A DNA stretch of 64,000 nt from positions 1-64,000 of the forward strand of contig MGEH01000018.1 of the NCBI GenBank assembly GCA_001791275.1. The letters run 5' to 3'. The stretch comes from Candidatus Uhrbacteria bacterium RIFCSPHIGHO2_12_FULL_60_25. Its GTDB lineage: Bacteria; Patescibacteriota; Patescibacteriia; 2-12-FULL-60-25. The position numbers were made by a program, and so were the translations under genes. Below, piece after piece: positions 7,130-22,346 of this stretch (its first letter is position 1; each line of letters opens with the position of its first letter). The notes under the pieces are model-generated. The model worked only from the letters and a program-made list of their open reading frames with translations, had not been told where the DNA came from and did not search any database.

Positions 7130-9685
7130 ATGCAAGACAAGATCGTCATCAAGGGCGCGCGCGAGCATAACCTCAAGAATATTTCGCTTGAGCTGCCGCG
7201 CAACAAGATGATCGTATTTACCGGCCTGTCCGGCTCCGGCAAGTCGAGTTTGGCGTTCGATACGATTTTCGCCGAAGGACAGCGGCGCTACGTCGAGTCG
7301 TTAAGTGCGTACGCCCGTCAATTTTTAGGCCAGATGGACAAGCCGGACGTGGATGAGATCGAAGGCCTGTCACCGGCTATCTCCATCGATCAGAAGGCGC
7401 ACAGCGCGAACCCGCGTTCCACGGTCGCCACGATCACGGAGATCTACGACTACATGCGCGTGCTCTACGCGCGCGTGGGCAAGCCGCACTGTCCGGTCTG
7501 CGGCAAGCCTATCCGCCGTCTCACGTCCGAGCAGATCGTGGACGCGATTTTGAAACGCACGGTCGAGATCCACACGAATCCGCAGGAGATCAAGAAGCGG
7601 AAAGGGGACTTCACGAACGAGATCGTCGTGCTCGCCCCGGCGGTCCGCGGGCGGAAAGGGGAGTACATGCAGCTCCTCCAGGATTTCTATCACGACGGAT
7701 TCCTCGAAGCGCGCGTGGATGGGACCGTCGTCTCGCTCCGGAGCCGCGTCCCGCTCCGTAAGTTTCAGCAGCACACGATCGAGCTCATTGTGGACCGCGT
7801 GCCGCTCGGCTGGCCGGTCGAACAGAACAAACAGCTCCGGTCGCGTCTCGCCGAAGCGGTCGAGATGGCGCTCGAGCGCGGCAATGACACGGTGAACGCC
7901 GTCTTGGACGACGAATCGGAGATGCTCATGAGCTCGCGTTTCTCCTGCCCGGACGACGGGTTCGCGTTCCCGGAGATCGAGCCCCGTCTCTTTTCATTCA
8001 ACTCGCCGTACGGCGCCTGTCCAACCTGTAACGGTCTCGGAACGAAAGAACTGTTTTCCGAAGAGGTCTGCCCGGCCTGCAACGGCGCACGCCTGCGCAC
8101 CGAGTCCATGCACGTGCTGGTCAACGGGAAGAACATCGTGGAGAGCGTCCGCGAGAACATCAGCGCGTCGCACGCCTTCTATACGGGTCTCGACCTGAAT
8201 GAGACGGATCAAGCGATCTCGGCGCCGATCCTGCGAGAGATCCTGGCGCGTCTGCAATTCCTGCTCGACGTCGGCCTCCATTACCTCACGCTCGACCGCA
8301 TCGCGGGGTCGCTCTCCGGCGGCGAAGCGCAGCGCATCCGTCTCGCGTCACAGATCGGATCCCGCCTGGTCGGGACGCTCTACATTCTCGACGAACCGAC
8401 GATCGGCCTGCATCAGCGCGACAACGTGAAGCTCATCGAGACGCTGGAGAAGCTGCGCGATCTCGGCAACACGATCATCGTCGTCGAACACGACGAGGAT
8501 ACGATTTCCGCGTCGGATTACCTGGTCGACATCGGTCCGGGTGCCGGCAGGCACGGCGGAGAGATCGTGGCGGCCGGGCCCATGCCGAAGGTCCTGCAGC
8601 ACAAGGGCAGCCTCACGTGCGCGTACCTGCGAGGGGACGCGTCCATTCCGATGCCGAAGAAGCGTCGTGCGGACGCGTCCACCTTTCTCGAGGTACGTGG
8701 TGCGCTGGAAAACAACTTGAAGAACATCAACGTCAAAATTCCTCTGAAGCGTTTTGTCTGCGTCACGGGCGTGTCCGGATCGGGGAAGTCAACGCTCATG
8801 ATCGACATCATCTACCGCGCACTGGCACGTGAATTGAACGGCGCTCTGGTCGAACCAGGCCGTCACAAGGCGATCCAAGGGATGAACTGGCTTGACAAAA
8901 TCGTTGACGTGGACCAGTCGCCGATCGGGCGCACGCCGCGATCCAATCCGGCCACGTACACGGGCATCTGGAACCACGTGCGGGACCTGTTCGCAATGAC
9001 TCCGGAGGCCAGAGTCCGCGCGTATACGAAAGGGCGGTTCAGTTTCAACGTCCAGGGCGGGCGGTGCGAGCACTGCGAGGGTAACGGGCAGATTGCGATC
9101 GAGATGCACTTCCTCCCGACAGTTTTCGTCCAATGCGACGTGTGCAAGGGGCGCCGCTTTGGCCGCGAGACGCTCGAAGTCAAATATCGCAACAAGAACA
9201 TCCACGAGGTCCTCACCATGACCGTGGAGGAAGCGAACGGGTTCTTCTCCGACATCCCGCCCATCCATGACAAGACGAAGATTCTCGAGGAAGTCGGGCT
9301 CGGGTACATCCAATTGGGTCAGTCCGCAACCACGCTGTCCGGCGGGGAAGCGCAACGCATCAAACTCGCGGCCGAGCTCGCCCGTCGCGATACGGGGAAG
9401 ACGTTCTACCTTTTCGACGAGCCGACCACGGGTCTGCACTTCGAAGACATTCGAAAATTTCTTGAGGTCCTCCACCGTCTCGTCAATCGCGGAAACTCCG
9501 TCGTGGTCATCGAACACAACCTGGATGTGATCAAGAATGCGGACTGGATCATTGATCTCGGTCCCGAAGGCGGAGACGATGGGGGTCGAGTCGTCGCGCA
9601 AGGAACGCCCGAAGACGTGGCTAAGAACAAGAATAGCTATACGGGGCAGTATTTGAGGAAGGCGCTCAAAATGAAATCCCAATGA
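7130..9685 (+). CDS. uvrA: Excinuclease ABC subunit A (shortened)
   Basis: [35 protein letters not shown]; two ABC signatures ([26 protein letters not shown]). Confidence 0.97.
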
Positions 9686-9699
9686 CCAGATATTAAAAG

Positions 9700-9729
9700 C
9701 CCCCGCTCCGTAGAAGCACGAAGCGGGGG
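9700..9729 (-). terminator. Terminator for the 862-aa gene
   Basis: CCCCCGCT...AGCGGGGG hairpin followed on minus strand by CTTTTAATAT. Confidence 0.7.
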
Positions 9730-9736
9730 ACGTCTG

Positions 9737-12325
9737 TCAGCGTTTTCGCGAACATGTTCGCCGTGTATTGATCAGGCGCACGAACGCGGCGCGCGAAGGC
9801 GCATGCAGGTTTTTCAGGAGCGTCTGTCCTGGGCGTTCGCCCATGTCGAGGAGCAGTTCCAGACGGAAGGCGATTTCCTGCGTGGGGCAGAACACACGGC
9901 TCCACGCCAGGCAGGGGTCGAGGGAGCGCGGATTCATGTGCAGCTCGTCGTATTCGATGGCCAAGCTCCGTCGCTCGTTGATCGTCTTGCGGAGCGCGTC
10001 GGGATGCAGGAAGAGCGCCATGCGCGAATCCGGGTCGCGCAGATTCCTCATCACGTCCTCCTGCCCCAGCCGGTACGACGCCAACAACCAGTACGCGAGC
10101 GCCAGCGGTCGAGCGTCGTCCGTGAGGAGTTCAGGATATTGTTGGAGGAACGTCTTCGCGTTTCCTGCTCTGAACCCGCTCACGCGCAACACGCCCAATG
10201 CTTCCTCGGTCGTGTGTTCCGATCGCGTCGGATCAGGATCAAGCGCATGCACGCCCACGGCGATGCGTTTTGCTTCAGCCGCCTGGTCCGGTGTGAGTCC
10301 TTCCCGCGTCTCCGTGAGCGTCCGCCTCTTGCCGTCGGTCGTCGGAAGATGCGAGTCCATGAGCGCATCGCGGTTGAACACGAGCGCGCGCGTGTTCTCA
10401 TTCAGGCGGCGCGTGAACGTGTCGCCTGAGATGCCGAGAACGGCCTTGAGCCGGATGAGCGAATGACAGAGCTGCGTCGGGTTCACGTGTTTCAGATCCG
10501 TGAATGCACGCAGGTGCAGCATGGCGTCGCGCCGGTTCCATCCGGCGAATTCAAAGGCCTGGATGGCCGTCGCGCATTCCGGCACGCTCCGTTTCGCGAT
10601 CGACGGGGGTGGGCTGTATTCATCCTCCGCACCCCGCTTCTTCGGCGGCGTTTCAGCAATTTTGTGCAGGATCCGTCGCGGGGAGACGTCAACGCGGATG
10701 CCGCGCGCTTCAAGGTTCGTGCGGCGGCGGACGAGCGCCGTGGCGCTCAGCCGCAGGGCTCGGTCCGCGCAGAGCACGAGCCGTTCCACGGCGCGTGGCG
10801 TGGGTGAGCCGAGCGCAGCGCGGATGCGCGCGCCGAGGACGTCCACGGGAACTTCCGTGATGGTCGGCGTGACCGATACGATGTAGGCGGCCACGTGCTT
10901 CTTTACACCGAAGTCGTGTACGAACATGCCGTGGAGTTCAAGGAGACGGTCAACGGCTTCTGGCGCGTACACCCGGCGGTGGGAGAGCAGGGCATCCAGT
11001 GCATGCGCGTTCCATCCGGCATCCAGAAGCCGTCCCAGAACAGCGAGGACTGCTTCTTCCGATCCGAGCCATGCGGTGAGCCAGTGGATGCGCATCATGC
11101 GCCGTTCATCGTCATAACCGAAGCCCTCGAGCTTGCGTGCGACATTGTTCATCGCCAGTGGCTTCGGAACATTTTCGTCCTCCAAGATGGACGTCGGTTC
11201 CTCGGTCGCATCCGCGTCCGGTGGTTCCGGGATGGGCTCGTCCGGTTCGTCCGGGATCGTGGCGGACAGGGTGTGCTGTGGTGATTGCCGCACGACGAGG
11301 ATGGCGGGGTTCGCATCCGGGTGTTCGCCGGATGCGATGAGTTCCGCACGGCGCAGGGCTGTGACGTCCGCGTCCTGTAGGAGAAGGGCAGGGGCTTTGA
11401 GAAGCAGTCGTTCCACGTCTGCCTGGGTTGGGAACGGGAGCGCGGCGCGGATTCGTTCCTCGAACGTCTCGAGCGATGCCTGCAGGATGGACGGTTTCTT
11501 CACGAGCATCACGATAACGCGCATGAGGGGCATGCCGAACGTCTCCGTGAGTACGCGCTGGATCTCCCTGATGCGTTCCGAACCGGCGAGTCGGAAATAG
11601 TTGTACGCGCCGAGTGCATCGCGCAGGTCGGCCTTCGTCCATCCGCTGTCGAGCAGGTCCGAAAGGAACGCGAGGCCAGCGTGGTACGATCCGAGGTCCT
11701 TGTAGAGGCGTTCGAGGTACCGCACGCACAGCGTCTCGTTGTACCGCAGGTCGCGCATGAGCTGTTCGAGCCGGTTCCGCGCCGTCTGTTCCGCCTGGAG
11801 CGCATGCCAGAGCGCCGGGTGGTCTAACTGGTACGTCGCTTCGGTGATGCCGCGCGCCACGCACTCGCTCACGATCACGGGATTGAGCGAGAAGTACGCC
11901 GGGAAGGCGTACAGGAACGTCCAGCGGCGCGCGTTGTCCGGAACGAGTTTGGCGGCGCTCTCGAGGAGCGCCGAGAACGTCTCGCCGTCAACGGTGAACG
12001 TCTTCGGCGAGCGGCGCATCATGCGCAGCACGTCCTGCCGGCTCAGTCCCTGGCAGAGGTTCAGGATGCGCGAGACGCGCGGTTCCACGTTTCCGATCGA
12101 GGACCGGTAGTCCGCGGGATTGTCGCGGAGAATCTCTTCCGCCAGATCGGGGCCGAACACGGCGGACATGGCGTCCACCATGGAGCAGGCTTCCTCGGCC
12201 GAGAGGGAGTTGAACGCGCCGATGCGGCGCAGCTGGATGATCAGATTGGGGTCCAGCCCCAGGCGCCGCCCAACGGCGACGTAGGCGTCGATGGGCGTTG
12301 CGGTATTCCGCGCATCGTCGTTCAT
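9737..12325 (-). CDS. Hypothetical 862-aa helical-repeat protein, mTERF-like motifs
   Basis: Intact ORF with AGAAAGGAA upstream; mTERF-like units such as LCQGLSRQDVLRMMRRSPKTFTVDGETFSALLESAAKL. Confidence 0.8.
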   Translation of the reverse strand: MNDDARNTATPIDAYVAVGRRLGLDPNLIIQLRRIGAFNSLSAEEACSMVDAMSAVFGPDLAEEILRDNPADYRSSIGNVEPRVSRILNLCQGLSRQDVLRMMRRSPKTFTVDGETFSALLESAAKLVPDNARRWTFLYAFPAYFSLNPVIVSECVARGITEATYQLDHPALWHALQAEQTARNRLEQLMRDLRYNETLCVRYLERLYKDLGSYHAGLAFLSDLLDSGWTKADLRDALGAYNYFRLAGSERIREIQRVLTETFGMPLMRVIVMLVKKPSILQASLETFEERIRAALPFPTQADVERLLLKAPALLLQDADVTALRRAELIASGEHPDANPAILVVRQSPQHTLSATIPDEPDEPIPEPPDADATEEPTSILEDENVPKPLAMNNVARKLEGFGYDDERRMMRIHWLTAWLGSEEAVLAVLGRLLDAGWNAHALDALLSHRRVYAPEAVDRLLELHGMFVHDFGVKKHVAAYIVSVTPTITEVPVDVLGARIRAALGSPTPRAVERLVLCADRALRLSATALVRRRTNLEARGIRVDVSPRRILHKIAETPPKKRGAEDEYSPPPSIAKRSVPECATAIQAFEFAGWNRRDAMLHLRAFTDLKHVNPTQLCHSLIRLKAVLGISGDTFTRRLNENTRALVFNRDALMDSHLPTTDGKRRTLTETREGLTPDQAAEAKRIAVGVHALDPDPTRSEHTTEEALGVLRVSGFRAGNAKTFLQQYPELLTDDARPLALAYWLLASYRLGQEDVMRNLRDPDSRMALFLHPDALRKTINERRSLAIEYDELHMNPRSLDPCLAWSRVFCPTQEIAFRLELLLDMGERPGQTLLKNLHAPSRAAFVRLINTRRTCSRKR

Positions 12326-12421
12326 GACGATTCCTTTCTGTATGGAGTTGGTTTTTCAAAGGGACGTTCCGGGCATTCAAACATGAAATGACGGTGCCGT
12401 CGAGATGTCTCATATAGAAAG

Positions 12422-12451
12422 GAGCCGACCGTCGAGGATGACGGACGGCTC
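12422..12451 (-). terminator. Terminator hairpin, shared family
   Basis: GAGCCGACCGTC-GAGGAT-GACGGACGGCTC; U-rich on minus strand; downstream of 203-aa gene. Confidence 0.65.
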
Positions 12452-12463
12452 GCAGATAAGAGC

Positions 12464-13075
12464 TCAATTGTCGTTGTCTTTGAACGTGCGCGAGTTTTTC
12501 ACTTGCTCGCGCAGTGCGTTGAAGTTCGAATCGAGCAACGTGGCCAGCTCACGCAGCATCATGACACGGGGCTTGCCCGCTGGCTGGCGCAACACCATAC
12601 GCGCGACGAACTCCGGACGGAACTTGCCCGCGGTGTACGCCATGATGGCGCCGATCACCGACACCTTGTTCTTGGAGGCGGGAATGCGCAGTCGCTTGAT
12701 GATCTCGTCGCGCTTGGCGGCATGTTTCTTCTCCCCGTCCGCCTTGGCCCGGAGGAGTTCCATGCGGATGCCGTCCTTCACGATCACCTCCGCTTCCCGT
12801 GCATCCCGCCGTCGGTCGGTTGTCTGTGTCGACTTCTTGGCTGATGCGGAGCTCTTCTTTTGGGATGGCACCACGAGTGGTCTGTTGACCATGCCGTTTT
12901 TCTCACTTCCGTTCGCGCTCCCGATGGCCGCATGTGAGTGGCCGTTGGCGGCCAGCACGTACAGTCGATTGAATCCGGCCTGATGCTTGCGGCTCAAGCA
13001 GCTGATCGCCGGGGCAAGCAGGGTGCGAATGGCCGTGAGCTCGTCGAGAGTCGTTGCGCCGTGTGTTCTGGGCAT
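12464..13075 (-). CDS. Hypothetical 203-aa protein homologous to the C-terminal half of the 581-aa neighbour
   Basis: Shares TAxxFRPxFxARxxxxxPAxxxxxxLxELATL with ORF 13267..15012. Confidence 0.75.
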   Translation of the reverse strand: MPRTHGATTLDELTAIRTLLAPAISCLSRKHQAGFNRLYVLAANGHSHAAIGSANGSEKNGMVNRPLVVPSQKKSSASAKKSTQTTDRRRDAREAEVIVKDGIRMELLRAKADGEKKHAAKRDEIIKRLRIPASKNKVSVIGAIMAYTAGKFRPEFVARMVLRQPAGKPRVMMLRELATLLDSNFNALREQVKNSRTFKDNDN

Positions 13076-13214
13076 GTTCGCTCCATGGATTTTGAAGTGC
13101 GATAATGGCGTTTTGTGTCGATATTCATGAGGTTCTTATCAAAGAGAACGCGTTGCGTCAACCAGGATGACAGGATGACAGGAGGGTGAGATCGCAGGTT
13201 TGCAGGGAACGAAA

Positions 13215-13243
13215 GAGCCGCACGTCGAGGGGACGTGCGGCTC
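13215..13243 (-). terminator. Terminator hairpin, shared family
   Basis: GAGCCGCACGTC-GAGGG-GACGTGCGGCTC followed on minus strand by TTTCGTT. Confidence 0.7.
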
Positions 13244-13266
13244 GGTGAGGCGCCGACGACTTAGGG

Positions 13267-15012
13267 TCAGTCGGTGAGCCTCGAGGCAATTTCCTTGGCT
13301 TCGGTGCGAAGCTTCTTCACGGGCATGGAGTAGAGCGTGGCAAGCTCCGTGAGCAAGGACTCGTGCTGGTCGGCCGGCAGATCCTTGAGAAGACGAGCGA
13401 TGAATCCGGGGCGGAACCGCGCCGCCGTGCCGGCGATCAGGCTGCCAAGCGTGCGCCTGCCGGGCCCATCGGGTTTCACACCGTACAGGGTCAGGATCGT
13501 GTCCTGCGCGGTTCTGTAGTCGAGCGGTCCCTTGTGCCTGGCGCGCAGGAGATTGAGTCGGTGTTCGTCCGTCTGCTTGAGCGGCACCACATGACCGTTG
13601 ATGTGCATGCCTATTGCACGCGAGAGATTGATCTTGCGCTTGGGCGCGGGCGCCGCTCTGGCAGCCGGAGTTGCGGGAGTCTCGCGCTTGGACGCGCGCG
13701 GTTGCTTGCCTTGTCCGGCCACGGGTTGCGCGGTGTCGGGCGCCGGCCCGACGGCCTCGGCGAGCGCGTCGACGGCCGCGCGCATGTGCTTGAGATGCGC
13801 ATGGACGTCTGCAGGCATCGCGCCGGATGTGCCAGCCAGGTCGCAGAGCCGGTCGAAGTCTGCGCGCAGTTCGCTGTTCAACGCGCCCAGAAAGGGCGCG
13901 AAGCGCTGGCGGATGCCGGCGATGGTCGCCGCGTTGTTCGGGGTCGGTTCGGTCACGTGTTCCTCCTGTGGGTTTGGATGCTCGGATGTGGGATTCGGAT
14001 GTGCGGACGTTTGGTCGACGACCGCCGAAGTACGTGCGGGGAGGTGACTCGTTTCGCGCACCTGCTGGTGCCAGATCGAGGCGATCTCGTCGCCGTGCAC
14101 GATGCTGAACGGCGCCTTGAGCATGACTTTGGCGAGCATTGCCGCGGCTTCAGCCATGTCCATCGGCTCGTTGTGCGTCTGCAAGCGGAAGAGGAGCGTC
14201 CGCATGCGGAAGTTCGACTCGTCCGACCAGTACACGTAGCGCTCCACATGTGAAGGGAGGGTGATGACCGACCCTTGCTGCATGAGCTTGAGGTAGCGGC
14301 GTTCGCCCCGCTCACGGAAGCGCAGGAAGTGCATGAGCGGGTAGCGCTCTTTGCGCGCTTCGTAACGCGCGCCTTCCCGCCGGATTGCGGAGAATGCGAG
14401 GAGCAGATAGAGGAGCGCGCCCGCTTCACGCAGGGCGACCTTCTCCGGATCCGCTCTCACGCCTTCTCTGATCACCGGTTCCTGCGAGTGCAGGTCCACC
14501 AGGTTGCTCCAGAGTTCGTTCCAGTGGGAGCCGAACAGCCGCGCGCAGATGCGCTGCACGAGTTTTGGTTCGTTCAGGCTTCGATTGCCCCGCTGGTCCG
14601 CCATCGTGACGGCCAGGATCCGACCCTTGCCGTTCAACAGAAGCGGCAGGATGTTCGTCAGATCTCGAATGGATGGTTCCACGGTTCCGCACAGATCGAG
14701 GTGGAACATGTCCAGACGGGCCTGGTTGTCGTTCGCTTTGTGGACCGCGGTCGGCAGGTCGGCGAGGGCGCGCACGTGATTGGCGAGCGGGTACGCATGG
14801 CGCAGTTTTCGCGCGCTGGCCGGGTCGTGTTCGACGAGCCAGCAGTGCGTCGGGGGGATGTGTAGCGACCGCCAGCGCTCGTACTCGAGCCCGGCGCCGC
14901 CCATGGTGGCGATCTGCGCGTGTACAAGTGACACGCAGTCCGCCAACAGCGTCAGGATTTGATCGATCACGCGCTGCTTGCTGGTAAGGCTAGCTGGGTC
15001 CATTGAAGTCAC
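13267..15012 (-). CDS. Hypothetical 581-aa protein, possible Rossmann/SAM-methyltransferase-like N-terminal domain
   Basis: Alternating strand pattern CWLVEHD...LDMFHLDLCGT...GRILAVTMADQRGNR; fold assignment by eye only. Confidence 0.7.
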   Translation of the reverse strand: MTSMDPASLTSKQRVIDQILTLLADCVSLVHAQIATMGGAGLEYERWRSLHIPPTHCWLVEHDPASARKLRHAYPLANHVRALADLPTAVHKANDNQARLDMFHLDLCGTVEPSIRDLTNILPLLLNGKGRILAVTMADQRGNRSLNEPKLVQRICARLFGSHWNELWSNLVDLHSQEPVIREGVRADPEKVALREAGALLYLLLAFSAIRREGARYEARKERYPLMHFLRFRERGERRYLKLMQQGSVITLPSHVERYVYWSDESNFRMRTLLFRLQTHNEPMDMAEAAAMLAKVMLKAPFSIVHGDEIASIWHQQVRETSHLPARTSAVVDQTSAHPNPTSEHPNPQEEHVTEPTPNNAATIAGIRQRFAPFLGALNSELRADFDRLCDLAGTSGAMPADVHAHLKHMRAAVDALAEAVGPAPDTAQPVAGQGKQPRASKRETPATPAARAAPAPKRKINLSRAIGMHINGHVVPLKQTDEHRLNLLRARHKGPLDYRTAQDTILTLYGVKPDGPGRRTLGSLIAGTAARFRPGFIARLLKDLPADQHESLLTELATLYSMPVKKLRTEAKEIASRLTD

Positions 15013-15074
15013 GCTTGGGTTGGGGTTGGGAGTTGGGGTGAAAAGTACGCCCCTGAAAGGCAGGGGAACGGATG

Positions 15075-15103
15075 AATCTATCAGGAATTGTCGGTTCGGT
15101 CAA
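15075..15103 (-). promoter_or_regulatory. Putative sigma70 promoter of the 581-aa gene
   Basis: Minus strand TTGACC-17 nt-TAGATT. Confidence 0.55.
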
Positions 15104-15186
15104 GAGCGGTCTTTCCGCGTATTCTTGGCTTAATGGAGTGACGGAATGCGTCTCCGGAGCCGCCCGTCGCAAGCCGTCTGTCTGAC

Positions 15187-15215
15187 TTGACAGTTTGCCT
15201 GATTTTCGATAGGGT
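15187..15215 (+). promoter_or_regulatory. Putative promoter of the HTH/GHKL operon
   Basis: TTGACA-17 nt-TAGGGT. Confidence 0.5.
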
Positions 15216-15293
15216 CACTTGAAACTTGGAACGCGTTTCCAAGCGGACATTCGACAACCCATCACTTCAACAACCTTCCCACATGGAGCGACC

Positions 15294-16445
15294 ATGGGAG
15301 CAAGTGACAACATCCTGAAGGGCATTCAAGAGGCGCGGGACGCCATGCTCAAGATATCGCCGCTCCAGAAGGAGCTGCGCCACCTCGTCCGCCAACGGTT
15401 GGACAAGGAGGGCTGGAACGTGGGTGAGGCCGCCCGATATGGCGGCACCTCATGGACCGACCTGAAGCGTTTTCTCGACGGCACGGGGGCTGTGGCGAGC
15501 GACAAGAAGCTCGCGGCATTCGGGAAGATTGCCAAGCGCGCAGATCTGGCGACGGAGATTGGGCGATACGTTCAACGTTTCTCGGCGACGCGGTTTCTCG
15601 TCATGTCGCTGTTCAGCAAGGACGTCATCAGGACGGCCTTTGACCTCATTGAGCAGTACGTTGCGAAGCAGCCGATCCGCATGGAGGACTATGCGAATGT
15701 GTTCGGCGAGTACGCGCCGATCGTGACCGGTGTGCTGGTGTACGCGTACGACGGCTGCAAGAAGCTCGAGGATCCGAAGGTGCAGGAGGCGGTCACTAAC
15801 GTCCTCCTCGCCGACGACTTTGAGCATCGGGTCACGCAGGCGCTCGAGACTCATACGCGCACGATCGTGGCGGAGCGAGAGCGACTGGATTCGCTCGTGG
15901 AGCAGCTGATGCCGATGTACGGCAACAGCAAGCAGCTGGCCAAGGCGCTGAAGATCTCGGAAGACATCTTCTACCGACCTAAGGACCGTGGATCCATGGC
16001 ACTTCTGACTCGCGTGAGAGCGGTCTGCGAACACGAGCTCGCGCGGCTGCACGCCGAAGGTGGGGCGCCGCGAACACAGATCGACGCGTCTGCGCAGGTA
16101 ACGGCGCGTATCGCGACTGCAGATCCGCCTGTCCTCACGCAACAGAATTTCGCGTTCATCGATCAGGTCCCCACCAAGGACGAGCTCGCTTTCACGCGCC
16201 AGACGCTCGTGCTGGCCCGGGTGATGCTCGAACGGCTGGTGCAGATTCGCGACGACAAGAAGCGGCTGCACATTCTGAACGACTTGAGCGGTTCCGTGGA
16301 GGATCTCGTGCTGGCAGCCAAGCTGTTCAGCTATGAGTATCCCAACGGCGTTCTACGCCTGTTCGACGCCGAACGTGAAGGCATGCAACTCTCGAAACAA
16401 CAAACCGACGGCGCCCCGCGCCGTTCAACGTTCAGGAGGAAATAA
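15294..16445 (+). CDS. Hypothetical protein with N-terminal HTH-like segment
   Basis: RLDKEGWNVGEAARYGGTSWTDLKRFLDG resembles a helix-turn-helix; stop overlaps next ATG (TAATG). Confidence 0.75.
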   Translation: MGASDNILKGIQEARDAMLKISPLQKELRHLVRQRLDKEGWNVGEAARYGGTSWTDLKRFLDGTGAVASDKKLAAFGKIAKRADLATEIGRYVQRFSATRFLVMSLFSKDVIRTAFDLIEQYVAKQPIRMEDYANVFGEYAPIVTGVLVYAYDGCKKLEDPKVQEAVTNVLLADDFEHRVTQALETHTRTIVAERERLDSLVEQLMPMYGNSKQLAKALKISEDIFYRPKDRGSMALLTRVRAVCEHELARLHAEGGAPRTQIDASAQVTARIATADPPVLTQQNFAFIDQVPTKDELAFTRQTLVLARVMLERLVQIRDDKKRLHILNDLSGSVEDLVLAAKLFSYEYPNGVLRLFDAEREGMQLSKQQTDGAPRRSTFRRK

Positions 16446-18430
16446 TGACTTCGAAGAATCCAGCCAGCATCCGGCCGATTACCCCGAGTCTCGGGGAGGG
16501 CAACCTCAAGCAGATGTTCAGCGGCAAGCCGTTCATCCACTGCCTTCTTGAGATGATCAAGAACTCACGCGACTATCGCGCGAAGCTCATTGCCGTGTTC
16601 TTCCAGGGCCGCGATCGGTTCGTGGCATTGGACAACGGAAGGGGCATGGGCGCCAAGAACCGTGACGGGTTCGCTTCGGTGAATCACACCACGGCCACCA
16701 GCCGTGATCAGTCGGGCCGCTTCGGGTCCGGCACCAAGCACATGCTGTACAGCCACGCCACGCAGGTGGAGGTGCTGACGGCGCCGGAGGAGGAGCCTGA
16801 CTGGGTGTATCGGTTCAGCTTCACCACCGAATCCTACGAGCGGATGGTTCTCCGTAAGGAGCAGTTCCTGCCCGAGCGGATGCCGAAGACGAGCCAGACA
16901 TGGCCGCATCCGTTTCCGTTCGGTACGCAGATCGTCTACACCCTGGCAGAGCCAACGAGCCGCGGCATTATGCGCGGCGAGAAGTTGGCGGCGGAGCTGG
17001 CGTCGCGGTTGCCGCTCAAGTTCCGTGACATCCTCACGGTGGACGGCGAACCGCTGCCAGAGAAGAAGCTCGTGGGCCGTCAGTTCGTCCTGAATGAGAA
17101 CCACTCCAAGCTCGGGCCGGTGAGCGTGGAGCTCTATCGGCCGGAGCGGCGACGTTCCGACGATGACCTCCGCATGGCGGTGGTCGAGGTCGGCGAAACG
17201 CCCATACGGAACGTGTTTCGCGTGATGGGCGACGTGAGCGACATGGTACCGGACGTGTTCCGGCTCGATGTGGTGTGCGGCACCATCACCGTTCCCGCGT
17301 TTCGCGACTATGCGAACGAGGACCGAAACACGTTCAGCCCCCGGATCGGCGACGATCCGCGGATCATGCCGTTCGTCCGTTTCCTCGAGCAGATCGCACC
17401 AAGCGTGCAGCAGGCGCTTGAGATCAAGCTGTCCGCGCAGAGCGAGGACGAAGCGGATCGCGCGGCCATGGACGAGCTGCGCGAGATGATCACCGGCGCC
17501 TACGGTCCGGAGCTCGTGGACCGCGATGGCCCCGGAATAGACCCTCCGGTCGACGGCCCCGTCGATCCGCCTATCGAGCCGGACCCCATCTCCCTCTCGC
17601 TCCGTCACGAGTTCGAGCCCGGTGAGGAGATCGACGTGAAGGTGCGACTCCACGGAGATGCAGCCGAGCACTACACGGCGAACGACCTCCAATGGCACAC
17701 CACGCGTGCGAATGCCACGAACATCCGCGTGCTGCCGGACGGCCTGCGCATGACCGCGAACCATTTGGGACGCGGGGTAATCAGCGTAGACATTCCGGGC
17801 ACGCCCTACGGTGCGTCCACCCAGTACGACGTGGTGGCGCAGCGCGTGTTCCGCCTGTCCAGTTCCAACGTCAGCACCAAGGTCAGCAAGAACGTGATGC
17901 TGCTCGGCGTGAACGTGGATCGCCTCAAAGGCAAGCTCGTGTGGAAACACACCGGCGTGGGTCGTCTGGATCCGAACGGCGCCAGGGCGGACTTCAAGTC
18001 CAACATTCCCGGCGTCGCCGAGGTTACGGCGTACGGTGCCGATGATCCGCGGGTGCAGGGCGTGTGCGTGATCAAGGTGAGGCCGGGCAAGGACGCGATC
18101 ATTCGCATCCGTAACCTCCGCTTCATGGAGAAGACGATGGCCTGCCACTCCGGCATGCCACCGGTCGCCATGAGCAAGGGCGGCAACGACAGCGACAGCG
18201 TTCACGTGCTGACGGTGGTCAGCCAGGCGCACGGCTACAAGGAGGCCCGCGAGCGCAGAGAGCTTCCGATGTTTCTCGCGCTCGCCACTGCGCTCGAGTA
18301 CGCCCGTTTCGAGCGGCTGGTCATCAATCCTGACGACGTGGTGGATCAGCGCGACGTCAGGACGGTGCAGGAAGACATCACCAGCACAGCCTGGGAGGTG
18401 TTCGAGGAGCTCGTTCGCTCCAAGAAGTGA
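16445..18430 (+). CDS. GHKL-superfamily ATPase (Hsp90/MORC/histidine-kinase-like), Ig-like C-terminal region
   Basis: N box LLEMIKNSRD, G1 box ALDNGRGMG, G2 box GRFGSGTKHML. Confidence 0.85.
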   Translation: MTSKNPASIRPITPSLGEGNLKQMFSGKPFIHCLLEMIKNSRDYRAKLIAVFFQGRDRFVALDNGRGMGAKNRDGFASVNHTTATSRDQSGRFGSGTKHMLYSHATQVEVLTAPEEEPDWVYRFSFTTESYERMVLRKEQFLPERMPKTSQTWPHPFPFGTQIVYTLAEPTSRGIMRGEKLAAELASRLPLKFRDILTVDGEPLPEKKLVGRQFVLNENHSKLGPVSVELYRPERRRSDDDLRMAVVEVGETPIRNVFRVMGDVSDMVPDVFRLDVVCGTITVPAFRDYANEDRNTFSPRIGDDPRIMPFVRFLEQIAPSVQQALEIKLSAQSEDEADRAAMDELREMITGAYGPELVDRDGPGIDPPVDGPVDPPIEPDPISLSLRHEFEPGEEIDVKVRLHGDAAEHYTANDLQWHTTRANATNIRVLPDGLRMTANHLGRGVISVDIPGTPYGASTQYDVVAQRVFRLSSSNVSTKVSKNVMLLGVNVDRLKGKLVWKHTGVGRLDPNGARADFKSNIPGVAEVTAYGADDPRVQGVCVIKVRPGKDAIIRIRNLRFMEKTMACHSGMPPVAMSKGGNDSDSVHVLTVVSQAHGYKEARERRELPMFLALATALEYARFERLVINPDDVVDQRDVRTVQEDITSTAWEVFEELVRSKK

Positions 18431-18441
18431 TGGCACTCTCA

Positions 18442-18478
18442 AAACGCCCGCATGCGTAACTCACGCATGCGGGCGTTT
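18442..18478 (+). terminator. Terminator after GHKL ATPase gene
   Basis: Perfect 16-bp stem AAACGCCCGCATGCGT-AACTC-ACGCATGCGGGCGTTT. Confidence 0.8.
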
Positions 18479-18506
18479 CTGTTGTTGATATAGTTCATAT
18501 AAACGA

Positions 18507-18538
18507 AAACCGGGACACGTGAGTGCGTATCCCGGTTT
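18507..18538 (-). terminator. Terminator of the coiled-coil gene
   Basis: AAACCGGGA...TCCCGGTTT inverted repeat just downstream of the minus-strand stop. Confidence 0.55.
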
Positions 18539-18545
18539 AAGGTCG

Positions 18546-20342
18546 TTACGCTCTTTTGGCTTTCGCCTTGGCCTTGGCCACGGACTTCGTTTCGAGATAG
18601 CGGGCGTTCTTCTTTTCCCTGAAGGTGGCGAACCCGGCGCGGATGGTAGTGGCATCCAACGCATGCTTCCCCATGAAACTGATCGCCTCGTCCGCATGCG
18701 CATAGGTCAGCTTGGAGATCCATGTCGTGCGGGCCTTGAAGTAGATCCAGCGGGAGCGGCTCGCCTGTTGCCGAGCGTTTGCTTCGCCGGTGCTCACCAG
18801 CTCGCGGTCCGCCTTATAGAGGGCGTGCAGGTACGGCAGGTAGTGCCGGTGCTCCTCCTCGGTGCAGCGCCCGAGTTCCACCAGCACCCGGAGCGCGTTC
18901 TTCATGTTCGTGCCGCTCAGGAAGTGCTTGTTCTGCACGGTGAGTACGTAGTACACGCACAGGACCATCTCCTTGAGCTCATCGAGCCGGCACGAGTCGA
19001 GCCGGTCGCTGTTTGGCGGCGCATCGTCCGCCACCTCGTCGCCGTCATCCGGGGCCTGTGAGATCGGACCCTCGGGATCATCGGCGTCCGGCGGGTTGGA
19101 CTGCGGCGACGATGCCGTCTCCGCGATCAGGAGGGTCGATCTCGGACCGCCGCTGAACTTGTCCAGCTCCTTTGAGACCTGGGCGATGTAACGATCAGCC
19201 AGCGCGAGCGTCTTGGCCAGATGCTCCGAATGTTTCGGTTTCGACTGGTGGATCTCGAGGAGGTCACGCGCCAGTCGGTCCAGGCGCTGTTGGCAGGTGC
19301 GGGTGGACCACTGCGGGTTCCTGAGGAGGGAAGTCGCGGTGCGGTACTGAACCTCGTTGATTCCTCCGTCGCTGTCCTGGAACGGACGGGGGACACCGGC
19401 ACCCAGGTCTTGCTCGCACTCCATGAGTTTGCGCGCGTGTTCGTGCATCTCACCACACAGGCGGCTTATGTCGCGACTGAACGTTTCCACCTCGGTGATG
19501 ATGGTGACGCCGAATTCATTCCAGGCGGCTTCGGCCACGCTGATCAGCTGCTTGCAGCCGGCAACGTGCTGTTGCGCCATCGGCAAACGCTCACGCATGT
19601 CGCGGCATGCTTCCGGACTCGCCTGGAATACCACCGCGCGATCGATGAACGGGTCATCTCCGCTATAGAGGAACGCTTGCGCATCCCTGAAGAGCGGGGA
19701 GTGGTCCGCCAGCTTGGCCTGCCACTCGCTCTGCGCGTGTTGCGCGCGCTTGATCCGATCGTTGAGACTCTGCTCGATGGCAGAGAGTTCGCTCACCGCG
19801 TCGATCAGCATGACGCAGGCCAGGCCCCAGTTGGTGTACTTCTCGCGTTTATACGAGCTATCGTCCCTGGAGACTACCCTGGACATTTCCACGACGGTAC
19901 TGGAAAGCTCTTCGGTGAGCGCATTCTTCTTTTCCAGCTCGGATGCCAGTTCCGAGACGGCCATCAGACCGTATAGGGTCTGTTCGATGGCCGAACGCAG
20001 CGCATGGACGTCCGCGTTCGCAGTCGCCTGGAGCAGCTCTTTCATGCGGAGCTCGCCAAAGACCTTCTCGTATAGCCGTTTGCCTTGCGGCCCCAGCATG
20101 GTGAGCGTTTCACGCGCCTGCTCCATCAGCGCATCGACGATCGTGAGGTGTTCCTTCAGGTCGAGGGTCATATGGACGACGGATCGTGCGCCATGGGCTG
20201 GCACGCGTCCTCTCTCGTTCCCGCGCTGTCTGACCTCTTCATGGATGTCTGTCAGAACTCCAAGGTGGAGTCGTGATGGGTCGACCAGGGAGAAACCGAA
20301 GTCGCCATCAGGCGTCGGAATGCGGATCAGGTACTTAGCCAT
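18546..20342 (-). CDS. Hypothetical ~598-aa largely helical protein
   Basis: Intact ORF; start MAKYLIRIPTPDG preferred; Glu/Lys/Leu-rich helical segments; basic Ala/Lys tail. Confidence 0.75.
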   Translation of the reverse strand: MAKYLIRIPTPDGDFGFSLVDPSRLHLGVLTDIHEEVRQRGNERGRVPAHGARSVVHMTLDLKEHLTIVDALMEQARETLTMLGPQGKRLYEKVFGELRMKELLQATANADVHALRSAIEQTLYGLMAVSELASELEKKNALTEELSSTVVEMSRVVSRDDSSYKREKYTNWGLACVMLIDAVSELSAIEQSLNDRIKRAQHAQSEWQAKLADHSPLFRDAQAFLYSGDDPFIDRAVVFQASPEACRDMRERLPMAQQHVAGCKQLISVAEAAWNEFGVTIITEVETFSRDISRLCGEMHEHARKLMECEQDLGAGVPRPFQDSDGGINEVQYRTATSLLRNPQWSTRTCQQRLDRLARDLLEIHQSKPKHSEHLAKTLALADRYIAQVSKELDKFSGGPRSTLLIAETASSPQSNPPDADDPEGPISQAPDDGDEVADDAPPNSDRLDSCRLDELKEMVLCVYYVLTVQNKHFLSGTNMKNALRVLVELGRCTEEEHRHYLPYLHALYKADRELVSTGEANARQQASRSRWIYFKARTTWISKLTYAHADEAISFMGKHALDATTIRAGFATFREKKNARYLETKSVAKAKAKAKRA

Positions 20343-20470
20343 GCTTTGCCTTTCAGAGTTGGGAATGTCCGCTCCACGTGTGATAGCCGCGTGGAAGTGA
20401 CTTAGGAAACCGTATTTTTCAGCATTTGTCAAGACGAAGAGGCGGCGGTCTGAATTGACGGGGTATGAAG

Positions 20471-20500
20471 AAACCGCACGTCGAGGATGATGTGCGGTTT
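20471..20500 (-). terminator. Terminator hairpin, shared family
   Basis: AAACCGCAC-GTCGAGGATGAT-GTGCGGTTT. Confidence 0.65.
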
Positions 20501-20532
20501 TCGATTCGTCGGTTGGTCTGCGTCCGCTCCGT

Positions 20533-21021
20533 TCAGCCTGAATCGGGACGGACCGGTTTCCTTCCCGTGAGCGAGTCGGAGAGCGTCATGACCGCCTTGA
20601 TCTTCTCGTCCGTTTCGTTGCGGATCAGGACCAGCGATTCGCGGAGGTGGTCCAGGATGTGGATGAGGCCCTCACCCAGACTGCCGAACTTGTGCATCTG
20701 TCCGTGACCTTCATCACGGTAGGTGACATAGGCCGTGCCGATGCGTTTGAACACGTAGCGCCTCGTCGGGAGATTCGGGTCGTACAGAAGATCGAAGTGC
20801 GCGTGTTGTCGCACGAGCGTCGCGATGCTGAACTCGCGGAGGCAGACCGATCGGTCGTCCGAGAATTCGAACGTTTGACCGATGCACATGAGGCCGAGGT
20901 GGTAGCCGTCGGACGAACCGATGACGTTGATTCGATCGGCTATTCGCTTGATCTCGTGATAAAGCCGCTCGAGCCGATACTCATATTCGTCGTGTGCCGG
21001 ATCCGTCAATTCGAACTGCAT
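20533..21021 (-). CDS. Hypothetical 162-aa protein
   Basis: Intact ORF with GGAGAAA-type RBS upstream. Confidence 0.7.
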   Translation of the reverse strand: MQFELTDPAHDEYEYRLERLYHEIKRIADRINVIGSSDGYHLGLMCIGQTFEFSDDRSVCLREFSIATLVRQHAHFDLLYDPNLPTRRYVFKRIGTAYVTYRDEGHGQMHKFGSLGEGLIHILDHLRESLVLIRNETDEKIKAVMTLSDSLTGRKPVRPDSG

Positions 21022-21101: not shown

Positions 21102-22346
21102 ATGTTCCCGAAACACGTCAAACTGAAAAATAACGAATTGCCCGATGCGCCAGGCGTCTATTTGATGAAGGACGCGAACGGCGACGTCATCTACGTTGGC
21201 AAGGCGACGTCGCTCAAACGTCGGGTCTCGTCCTATTTCCAACGTCCGCACGATGTGCGCATACAGGAAATGGTCTCCTTGATTCGGAAGATAGACTATA
21301 TCGTCAAACCGACCGTGATTGAAGCGTTGATCCTCGAAGCCAATCTCATCAAGTACTACTGGCCGAAGTACAACATCTTGAGCAAGGACAATAAGAGCTT
21401 CTTGTATCTCGTCATCACGAAAGAGGAATATCCGCGGCCGCTCCTTGTCCGCGGGACGGAATTGGACGCGCACGCGTCACAAAAATACAAAGCCGTCTTC
21501 GGCCCCTACACCTCGCCGCGGTCTTTGCGCGCGGCATTGGACCTGATCCGTCGCGTGTTCTCATGGTCTTCCTGCACGCCCGGGATGAAGCGGCCGTGTT
21601 TCTACGTCCATCTGAAACAGTGCCCGGGCGTGTGCATCGGCGCGGCGGACAAGAAGACGTACAACAAAACCATCCGCGACCTGATCAAGTTCTTCGAGGG
21701 GAAGAAAGAGGGGATTATCAAGGACTATAAGAAGGAAATGAAGGCCGCATCCGCGTCGCGCCACTTCGAAGATGCTGCCGCGCTGCGCAATAAGATTTTC
21801 TTCCTCGAGCACATTCAGGACGTGGCGATCCTGAAACGTGAGGACGATAACGTGGACAAACTGAAAGAAGGGGAGGCGGTCGTGAATCTGTTCGGGCGTA
21901 TTGAAGGGTACGACGTCTCGACTATCTCCGGGACGTCCACCGTCGCCTCGATGGTCGTGTTCGAACATGGGGCGCCGGCCAAAGCCGAGTACCGGAAGTT
22001 TCGCATCCGGTCCGTGGTCGGGACGGACGATTTCGCGGCACTTCGAGAAGCACTCATGCGCCGCTTCCGGAACTTCTGGCGCAAGCCGGACCTGCTTTTG
22101 ATCGACGGGGGGATCGGTCATGTCCACGTCGCCCTATCCGTCCTGCACGCACTCGATCTCGCCATCCCGGTCGTAGGCATCGCCAAAGGTCCGGATCGAA
22201 AGAAAGACGAGCTTATTTGTGACAAGAATCATCTCGATTTGTGCCGCCTGTGCGATCAGTACAAACCTCTCTTGATCCAGGTCCGGGACGAGGCGCACCG
22301 GTTCGCGGTGACGTATCATCGGAAAGTGAGATCGATGAGGGAGTAA
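21102..22346 (+). CDS. uvrC: Excinuclease ABC subunit C, short form (no HhH)
   Basis: GIY-YIG PGVYLMKDANGDVIYVGKA; RNase H-like region GTSTVASMVVFEHG, LLLIDGG, RDEAHRFAVTYHRK. Confidence 0.93.
   Translation: MFPKHVKLKNNELPDAPGVYLMKDANGDVIYVGKATSLKRRVSSYFQRPHDVRIQEMVSLIRKIDYIVKPTVIEALILEANLIKYYWPKYNILSKDNKSFLYLVITKEEYPRPLLVRGTELDAHASQKYKAVFGPYTSPRSLRAALDLIRRVFSWSSCTPGMKRPCFYVHLKQCPGVCIGAADKKTYNKTIRDLIKFFEGKKEGIIKDYKKEMKAASASRHFEDAAALRNKIFFLEHIQDVAILKREDDNVDKLKEGEAVVNLFGRIEGYDVSTISGTSTVASMVVFEHGAPAKAEYRKFRIRSVVGTDDFAALREALMRRFRNFWRKPDLLLIDGGIGHVHVALSVLHALDLAIPVVGIAKGPDRKKDELICDKNHLDLCRLCDQYKPLLIQVRDEAHRFAVTYHRKVRSMRE

Follow-up and report, generated by a model that had tools for sequence, protein, structure and literature searches.

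Between uvrA and uvrC of Candidatus Uhrbacteria bacterium RIFCSPHIGHO2_12_FULL_60_25 lies a group of seven open reading frames (ORFs), and four of them, designated here A, B, C and D, belong to a gene module that recurs in other Patescibacteria and is considered below. The window, i.e., the whole stretch of DNA analysed, comprises the initial 64 kb of contig MGEH01000018.1, which is 75.9 kb long and comes from a genome of 979 kb. An original prediction, made from the letters of this DNA, had described the interval as a single block of seven genes, and its description of the layout was accurate. The ORFs are present with the right sizes within a residue or two, in the strand order of three minus, two plus and two minus (Table 1), and the plus-strand pair is coupled through a one-base overlap of the stop codon of A and the start codon of B (TAATG, 16443-16447), with AGGAGG ahead of it. 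The claimed terminators were also found as strong hairpins; in total, 18 terminator-like sites were counted versus 8.6 +/- 3.1 in shuffled sequences.

Table 1. Genes and terminator-like hairpins of the uvrA-uvrC interval (positions in the window).
Feature	Position	Strand	Comment
uvrA	7130-9685	+	
Terminator-like hairpin	9700-9729	-	
P0001, 862 aa	9737-12325	-	Helical, mTERF-like (sub-threshold); native flank, outside the module
P0002, 203 aa	12464-13075	-	Stand-alone copy of the C-terminal domain of D (P0003)
Terminator-like hairpin of D	13215-13243	-	
D (P0003), 581 aa	13267-15012	-	Class-I SAM-methyltransferase-like N-terminal domain and helical C-terminal domain
A (P0004), 383 aa from ATG 15294 (408 aa from TTG 15219)	15294-16445	+	HTH-like DNA-binding candidate
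B (P0005), 661 aa	16445-18430	+	GHKL ATPase by Pfam match and ATP motifs
Terminator-like hairpin of A-B	18442-18478	+	16 pairs
Terminator-like hairpin of C	18507-18538	-	
C (P0006), 598 aa from ATG (628 aa from TTG 20432)	18546-20342	-	Helical/coiled-coil-like; convergent to B
P0007, 162 aa	20533-21021	-	Orphan; module membership unsupported
uvrC	ATG near 21102, end 22346	+	

Comparison with other genomes was carried out on samples containing one genome per species; several of the loci are cut off where a contig stops, genes were called mechanically, and flanking housekeeping genes are named by sequence, not all of them by profile. Relatives of B in genomes G034 and G028 share their neighbours, namely a relative of A upstream and a convergent relative of C, the module of G028 being read across two contigs that break inside B. 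Relatives of A occupy the same position in G034, G028 and G250, and relatives of C were found at the matching position also in G250, G321 and G091. According to our own reading, A stands immediately 5' of B, in the same orientation, at 21 patescibacterial loci. The side downstream of B is readable at 21 loci, and at 18 of these C comes next and is convergent (C of G245, one of the 18, was identified solely from its position). Three loci depart from this order: in G286 C is co-directional after B, in G247 C lies beyond A, and in G085 a different gene follows B. D or a methyltransferase-like part of it was found in the cassettes of the window, G718, G186 and G247, as well as in those of G010, G027, G286, G058 and the Doudnabacteria contig L057 (seemingly identical with record G628), where relatives of D adjoin a type-2 GHKL ATPase with its own A and C. 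In G032, D stands where a contig ends, so that what lies upstream of it is out of view, and in G034 only the C-terminal half of D is present. The ORFs of A, B, C and D were thus found neither scattered nor confined to housekeeping families; the set recurs linked, and A-B-C(-D) is very probably one functional unit. A chance gathering of unrelated orphans is compatible with the fact that P0001, P0002 and P0007 are not constant members, but for A-B-C it is contradicted by linkage, polarity and matched types across many genomes and is extremely improbable.

The spread of the module is patchy. Of the 363 class genomes examined by profile searches, 15 have type-1-like B, although the two weakest cases (G221 and G314) are doubtful; type-2 B was detected in 3 of the 380 phylum genomes. 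B is present in 3 of 41 genomes of the family. Both types of B are homologous by profile comparison (E 7e-12). Scans of genome contigs with P0005 and D, which were seeded by short patterns and therefore not exhaustive, gave nothing for P0005 alone and, for D, matches in Patescibacteria only (records titled Candidatus Uhrbacteria, Candidatus Doudnabacteria and Patescibacteria).

Genomes G027 and G034 belong to one genus, and each of A, B and C is of type 2 in the former and of type 1 in the latter. Since these two genomes hold different, matched types of all three genes, the module moves between patescibacterial chromosomes as a unit, and the unit itself is well supported. Correlation of the similarity matrices gave rho 0.27 (p 0.005) for A-B, 0.45 for B-C and 0.48 for A-C, and for the last two pairs 0 of 2000 permutations were as high; common descent adds to these correlations, whereas the type switch between G027 and G034 does not follow the species tree. 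Types 1 and 2 of A are homologous, as follows from their profile comparison (E 1.6e-6).

The limits of the insert in the window are indicated by three genus-mates. In G002 and G003, uvrA and uvrC flank a homologue of P0001, and G001 has one next to uvrC. The gap separating this homologue from uvrC measures 78 bp (G001), 165 bp (G002) or about 2 kb (G003, where it holds a FecR-domain gene); the corresponding gap in the window is 8.7 kb. B was not found in any of the three. Because the genus-mates keep the P0001 homologue near uvrC without B and with much shorter gaps, the insert spans approximately 12.4-21.05 kb, and P0001 is outside it. A search for boundary repeats of the insert revealed no pair that stood out. 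P0007 occurs in 1 of 41 family genomes, that of the window only. P0002 matches residues 482-574 of P0003 (E 2.5e-7), and a similar stand-alone protein is present in G029; P0002 is a stand-alone copy of the C-terminal domain of D. The idea of all seven genes as one system was consequently rejected, P0001 being a resident neighbour in the genus-mates, P0007 an orphan and P0002 a lone copy of a domain.

The GHKL ATPase named in the original prediction is P0005, which matched the Pfam family HATPase_c_3 with 34.1 bits (cut-off 25, E 3.3e-8) and contains the ATP motifs E36 and N40 (N-box), D63xGxG and G91xxGxGxK98. All of the 18 B proteins that were compared have the DxGxG motif. Judging by the profile match and these motifs, B is a member of the GHKL ATPase superfamily. 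The defining MORC signature GhXhhpXXRhl was tested and is absent from all 18 proteins, so MORC membership of B was rejected and the module was not filed as MORC. The ExxxH motif of paraMORC2 is not conserved among B proteins and is absent from P0005 in the region tested; the nuclease pattern E-D-ExK of paraMORC3 is not conserved in B either, nor was a nuclease family matched. None of the NCBIfam matches reached its cut-off. The weak likeness of P0005 to the restriction enzyme family BbrUII/HgiDII (NF050001; 15.9 bits, cut-off 550) covers the GHKL part and stops after the ATPase domain. Matches to C-terminal beta-domains remained sub-threshold in two relatives of B, the structure model of P0005 had a mean predicted local distance difference test score (pLDDT) of 35, too low to be used for an S5-fold domain, and no reliable hit came from sequence searches of PDB in which profiles of D and B were used.

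The possible S-adenosylmethionine (SAM)/Rossmann protein of the original prediction corresponds to D. An AlphaFold2 model built from six sequences has a pLDDT near 90 over most of residues 10-300 and consists of alternating strands and helices with a long antiparallel hairpin. Using Foldseek, it was found that the best PDB matches of this model are nearly all class-I SAM methyltransferases, with a probability of 1.00 to many of them. The N-terminal half of D is therefore confidently modelled as having the class-I SAM-methyltransferase fold, SAM binding and methyl transfer being only predicted. The predicted fold is shared with PmtA (9ko3) and PKMT1 (5dnk); at 11-16% identity, this is a likeness at the level of the fold, from which the substrate cannot be inferred. 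The conserved elements of D are GGxGxE, E61, DxxHxDLCG and the FRMRT region. GGxGxE, the SAM-binding first motif, was found in the 8 type-1 D proteins and not in those of G186 and G247, where DLCG is replaced by DFEG; because of these two changes, D of G186 and G247 may be inactive or different. As a separate observation, an exact 13-mer, CCGCACGTCGAGG, is common to the terminator hairpins of P0003 (13218-13230) and P0007 (20474-20486). These are its only two exact copies in the window, both in the island, and a similar 13-mer is located at 12425-12437, 3' of P0002.

The helix-turn-helix (HTH) signal, on which a further claim of the original prediction depended, is weak in the window protein A itself, and the claim draws its strength from the relative L059, where the protein at the same position matched HTH_31 above cut-off. 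Coiled coils were supported by a heptad test for many C proteins, P0006 scoring 0.45 versus 0.43 for the best shuffle, i.e., barely above. Weak matches to DUF7147, SASP, Death, V-SNARE, Spectrin_4 and Dynactin were treated as a result of chance or helical composition.

Some data on the genomic and literature context point to a possible role of the module. In G010 it is situated between fusA and tuf, and the same interval in G027 (L110, G027:C8:42000-54750) contains HsdM, HsdS and HsdR, a complete type I restriction-modification (R-M) system. An ADP-ribosylglycohydrolase gene is present in this interval in G010 and G015 and a Bro-N protein gene in G009, and the fusA-tuf gap of G013 is only about 0.6 kb. 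Since fusA is not found within 1.5 kb of tuf in 8 of 10 relatives, the interval is variable and does not offer a clean empty-site comparison; for this reason the slot common to the module and the type I R-M system hints at defence, is only suggestive and gives no proof. The combination of a GHKL ATPase and a methylase is a typical feature of R-M loci (Iyer, Abhiman and Aravind 2008, PMC2292703), and VcSduA, a Shedu protein with an N-terminal GHKL domain, is active in phage defence (PMC12137116). The number of defence systems recognised in a patescibacterial genome is small, and it was suggested that these bacteria carry ones overlooked by current tools (PMC12259885).

Summarizing the recurrence, the patchy spread, the matched types, the slot shared with an R-M system, the precedents of GHKL ATPases with methylases and the fold of D, we read the module as an uncharacterised GHKL-ATPase defence system against foreign DNA, and in our opinion the probability of this reading, which is drawn from context, is about 0.5. 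The multi-component defence or DNA-maintenance cassette suggested in the original prediction is in this way retained for A, B, C and often D, which recur elsewhere in matched types and, in one copy, in a slot holding type I R-M in a relative; it is not retained for all seven genes. The HTH-like protein A would bind DNA and recruit B, and B would close on ATP like other GHKL dimers and entrap or loop the DNA. C, a long helical protein encoded by its own convergent unit, could bridge or complete the A-B complex, and D might act on a host target, its modification serving as a self mark or a control signal, and is dispensable in some versions. Entrapment without a nuclease and D as a self-marker are speculative. 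Such ATP-driven DNA clamping, which is less certain than the defence role, resembles what was proposed for MORC and paraMORC in R-M loci (PMC2292703). In its most specific form, that of a new kind of nuclease-free immunity in Patescibacteria, in which a GHKL clamp, loaded by the HTH protein and assisted by a coiled-coil partner, traps and silences foreign DNA and a non-canonical methyltransferase provides self/non-self discrimination, as a bacterial counterpart of MORC-type compaction, the proposal is tentative and on the doubtful side.

Like MORC and paraMORC loci (PMC2292703), the module contains a GHKL ATPase with intact ATP motifs, is spread patchily with exchange between lineages and has a methyltransferase-like neighbour in some loci. 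In contrast to MORC, its B proteins lack the signature, no SFII helicase or nuclease was recognised, and the HTH-like and convergent coiled-coil partners are constant, unlike those of MORC/paraMORC loci. B shares the GHKL ATPase with VcSduA, which functions in an anti-phage setting (PMC12137116), but VcSduA is a single protein with a PD-(D/E)xK nuclease domain, and no such domain was recognised here.

The main rival to the defence reading is a restriction-type mechanism. Here B would draw the DNA between sites into a loop, cleavage would come either from a nuclease of the host or from a diverged one concealed in A or C, and D would protect the host DNA. The methyltransferase-like D beside a GHKL ATPase and the fusA-tuf slot common with a type I R-M system speak for this mechanism, and the same model was proposed for MORC and paraMORC loci (PMC2292703). 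However, no endonuclease was found by Pfam, NCBIfam or PADLOC in the module genes scanned, although a diverged nuclease could escape such searches, B has no conserved E-D-ExK, and D is optional and without DPPY and PCQ. We consider this mechanism rather unlikely.

A number of results weigh against the defence reading itself. PADLOC-DB 2.0.0 gave no match for the seven window proteins or two relatives of B, and identity with a known defence system was rejected on this ground; the matches of a neighbour in L083 to JetC/LmuB (<=17.2 bits) are weak and were not used. No nuclease, helicase or other effector was recognised in the module. The motifs of canonical DNA methyltransferases, [DNS]PP[YFW] (DPPY) or PCQ, are absent from all 10 D proteins, so that D was rejected as an enzyme of this kind. 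D is also absent from about half of the modules, those other than the ones listed above showing none. In G186 (L060) and G247 (L091), B has Gln in place of the N-box Glu, and the SAM-binding first motif of D is lost; these modules may be catalytically altered or inactive versions. Types 3 and 4 of A show no more than a marginal relationship to type 1 and were assigned partly by position, and the types of C are weakly alike (C1-C3, 7e-5), their assignment also being partly positional. Pattern-seeded scans of IMG/VR with D and both types of B gave no match, nor did tblastn searches of phage records with P0005 and P0003 and of plasmid records with P0005. Finally, seven genomes from several families have the module next to or near a gene read as trigger factor, a location that could be another slot or could reflect long vertical retention instead of mobility.

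This last location, together with a DNA-binding partner and the lack of an effector, would fit a chromosome-organisation or regulatory device (e.g., for nucleoid compaction, competence or attachment control) that does not serve immunity. Such a device is the next rival and is unlikely, as the module is absent from most genomes, occurs at many different loci and has its types swapped within a genus. The patchy, unit-wise spread and unrelated cargo such as P0007 and P0002 alongside would also suit a selfish or addictive element, toxin-antitoxin-like or a maintenance part of a decayed mobile element, which brings no benefit to the cell; no integrase, transposase or toxin family was recognised in the module genes of the window, no boundary repeat stood out, and this explanation is quite improbable.

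With its genes, types and boundaries defined, the module offers a concrete and repeatedly found candidate for a defence system missed by current tools. No description of this gene combination was found in the literature searched, most subscription papers being outside that search. If the module works without a nuclease, it would link bacterial defence to MORC-type DNA compaction, a process with a poorly understood role in bacteria.

Several observations concern the neighbouring genes. At the seven loci with the module beside or near trigger factor (L060, L086, L087, L088, L089, L090 and L091), a membrane pyrophosphatase gene is often present on the opposite side. In the unrelated genomes G034 (L007) and G286 (L058), the module has similar neighbours, namely sugar-transferase and glycosyltransferase genes of one kind. 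The 862-aa product P0001, previously described as a helical-repeat protein, matched Pfam mTERF with 21.5 bits, below the cut-off of 23.1, and its homologues did not match this profile. A fast-evolving mTERF-like helical protein is encoded beside uvrC across the genus (L029 6207-8939, L030 6790-9057 and L033 6449-7960), and a PIF1-like helicase with a WYL domain is encoded near uvrC in the genus-mate G001 (L030 10159-11733).

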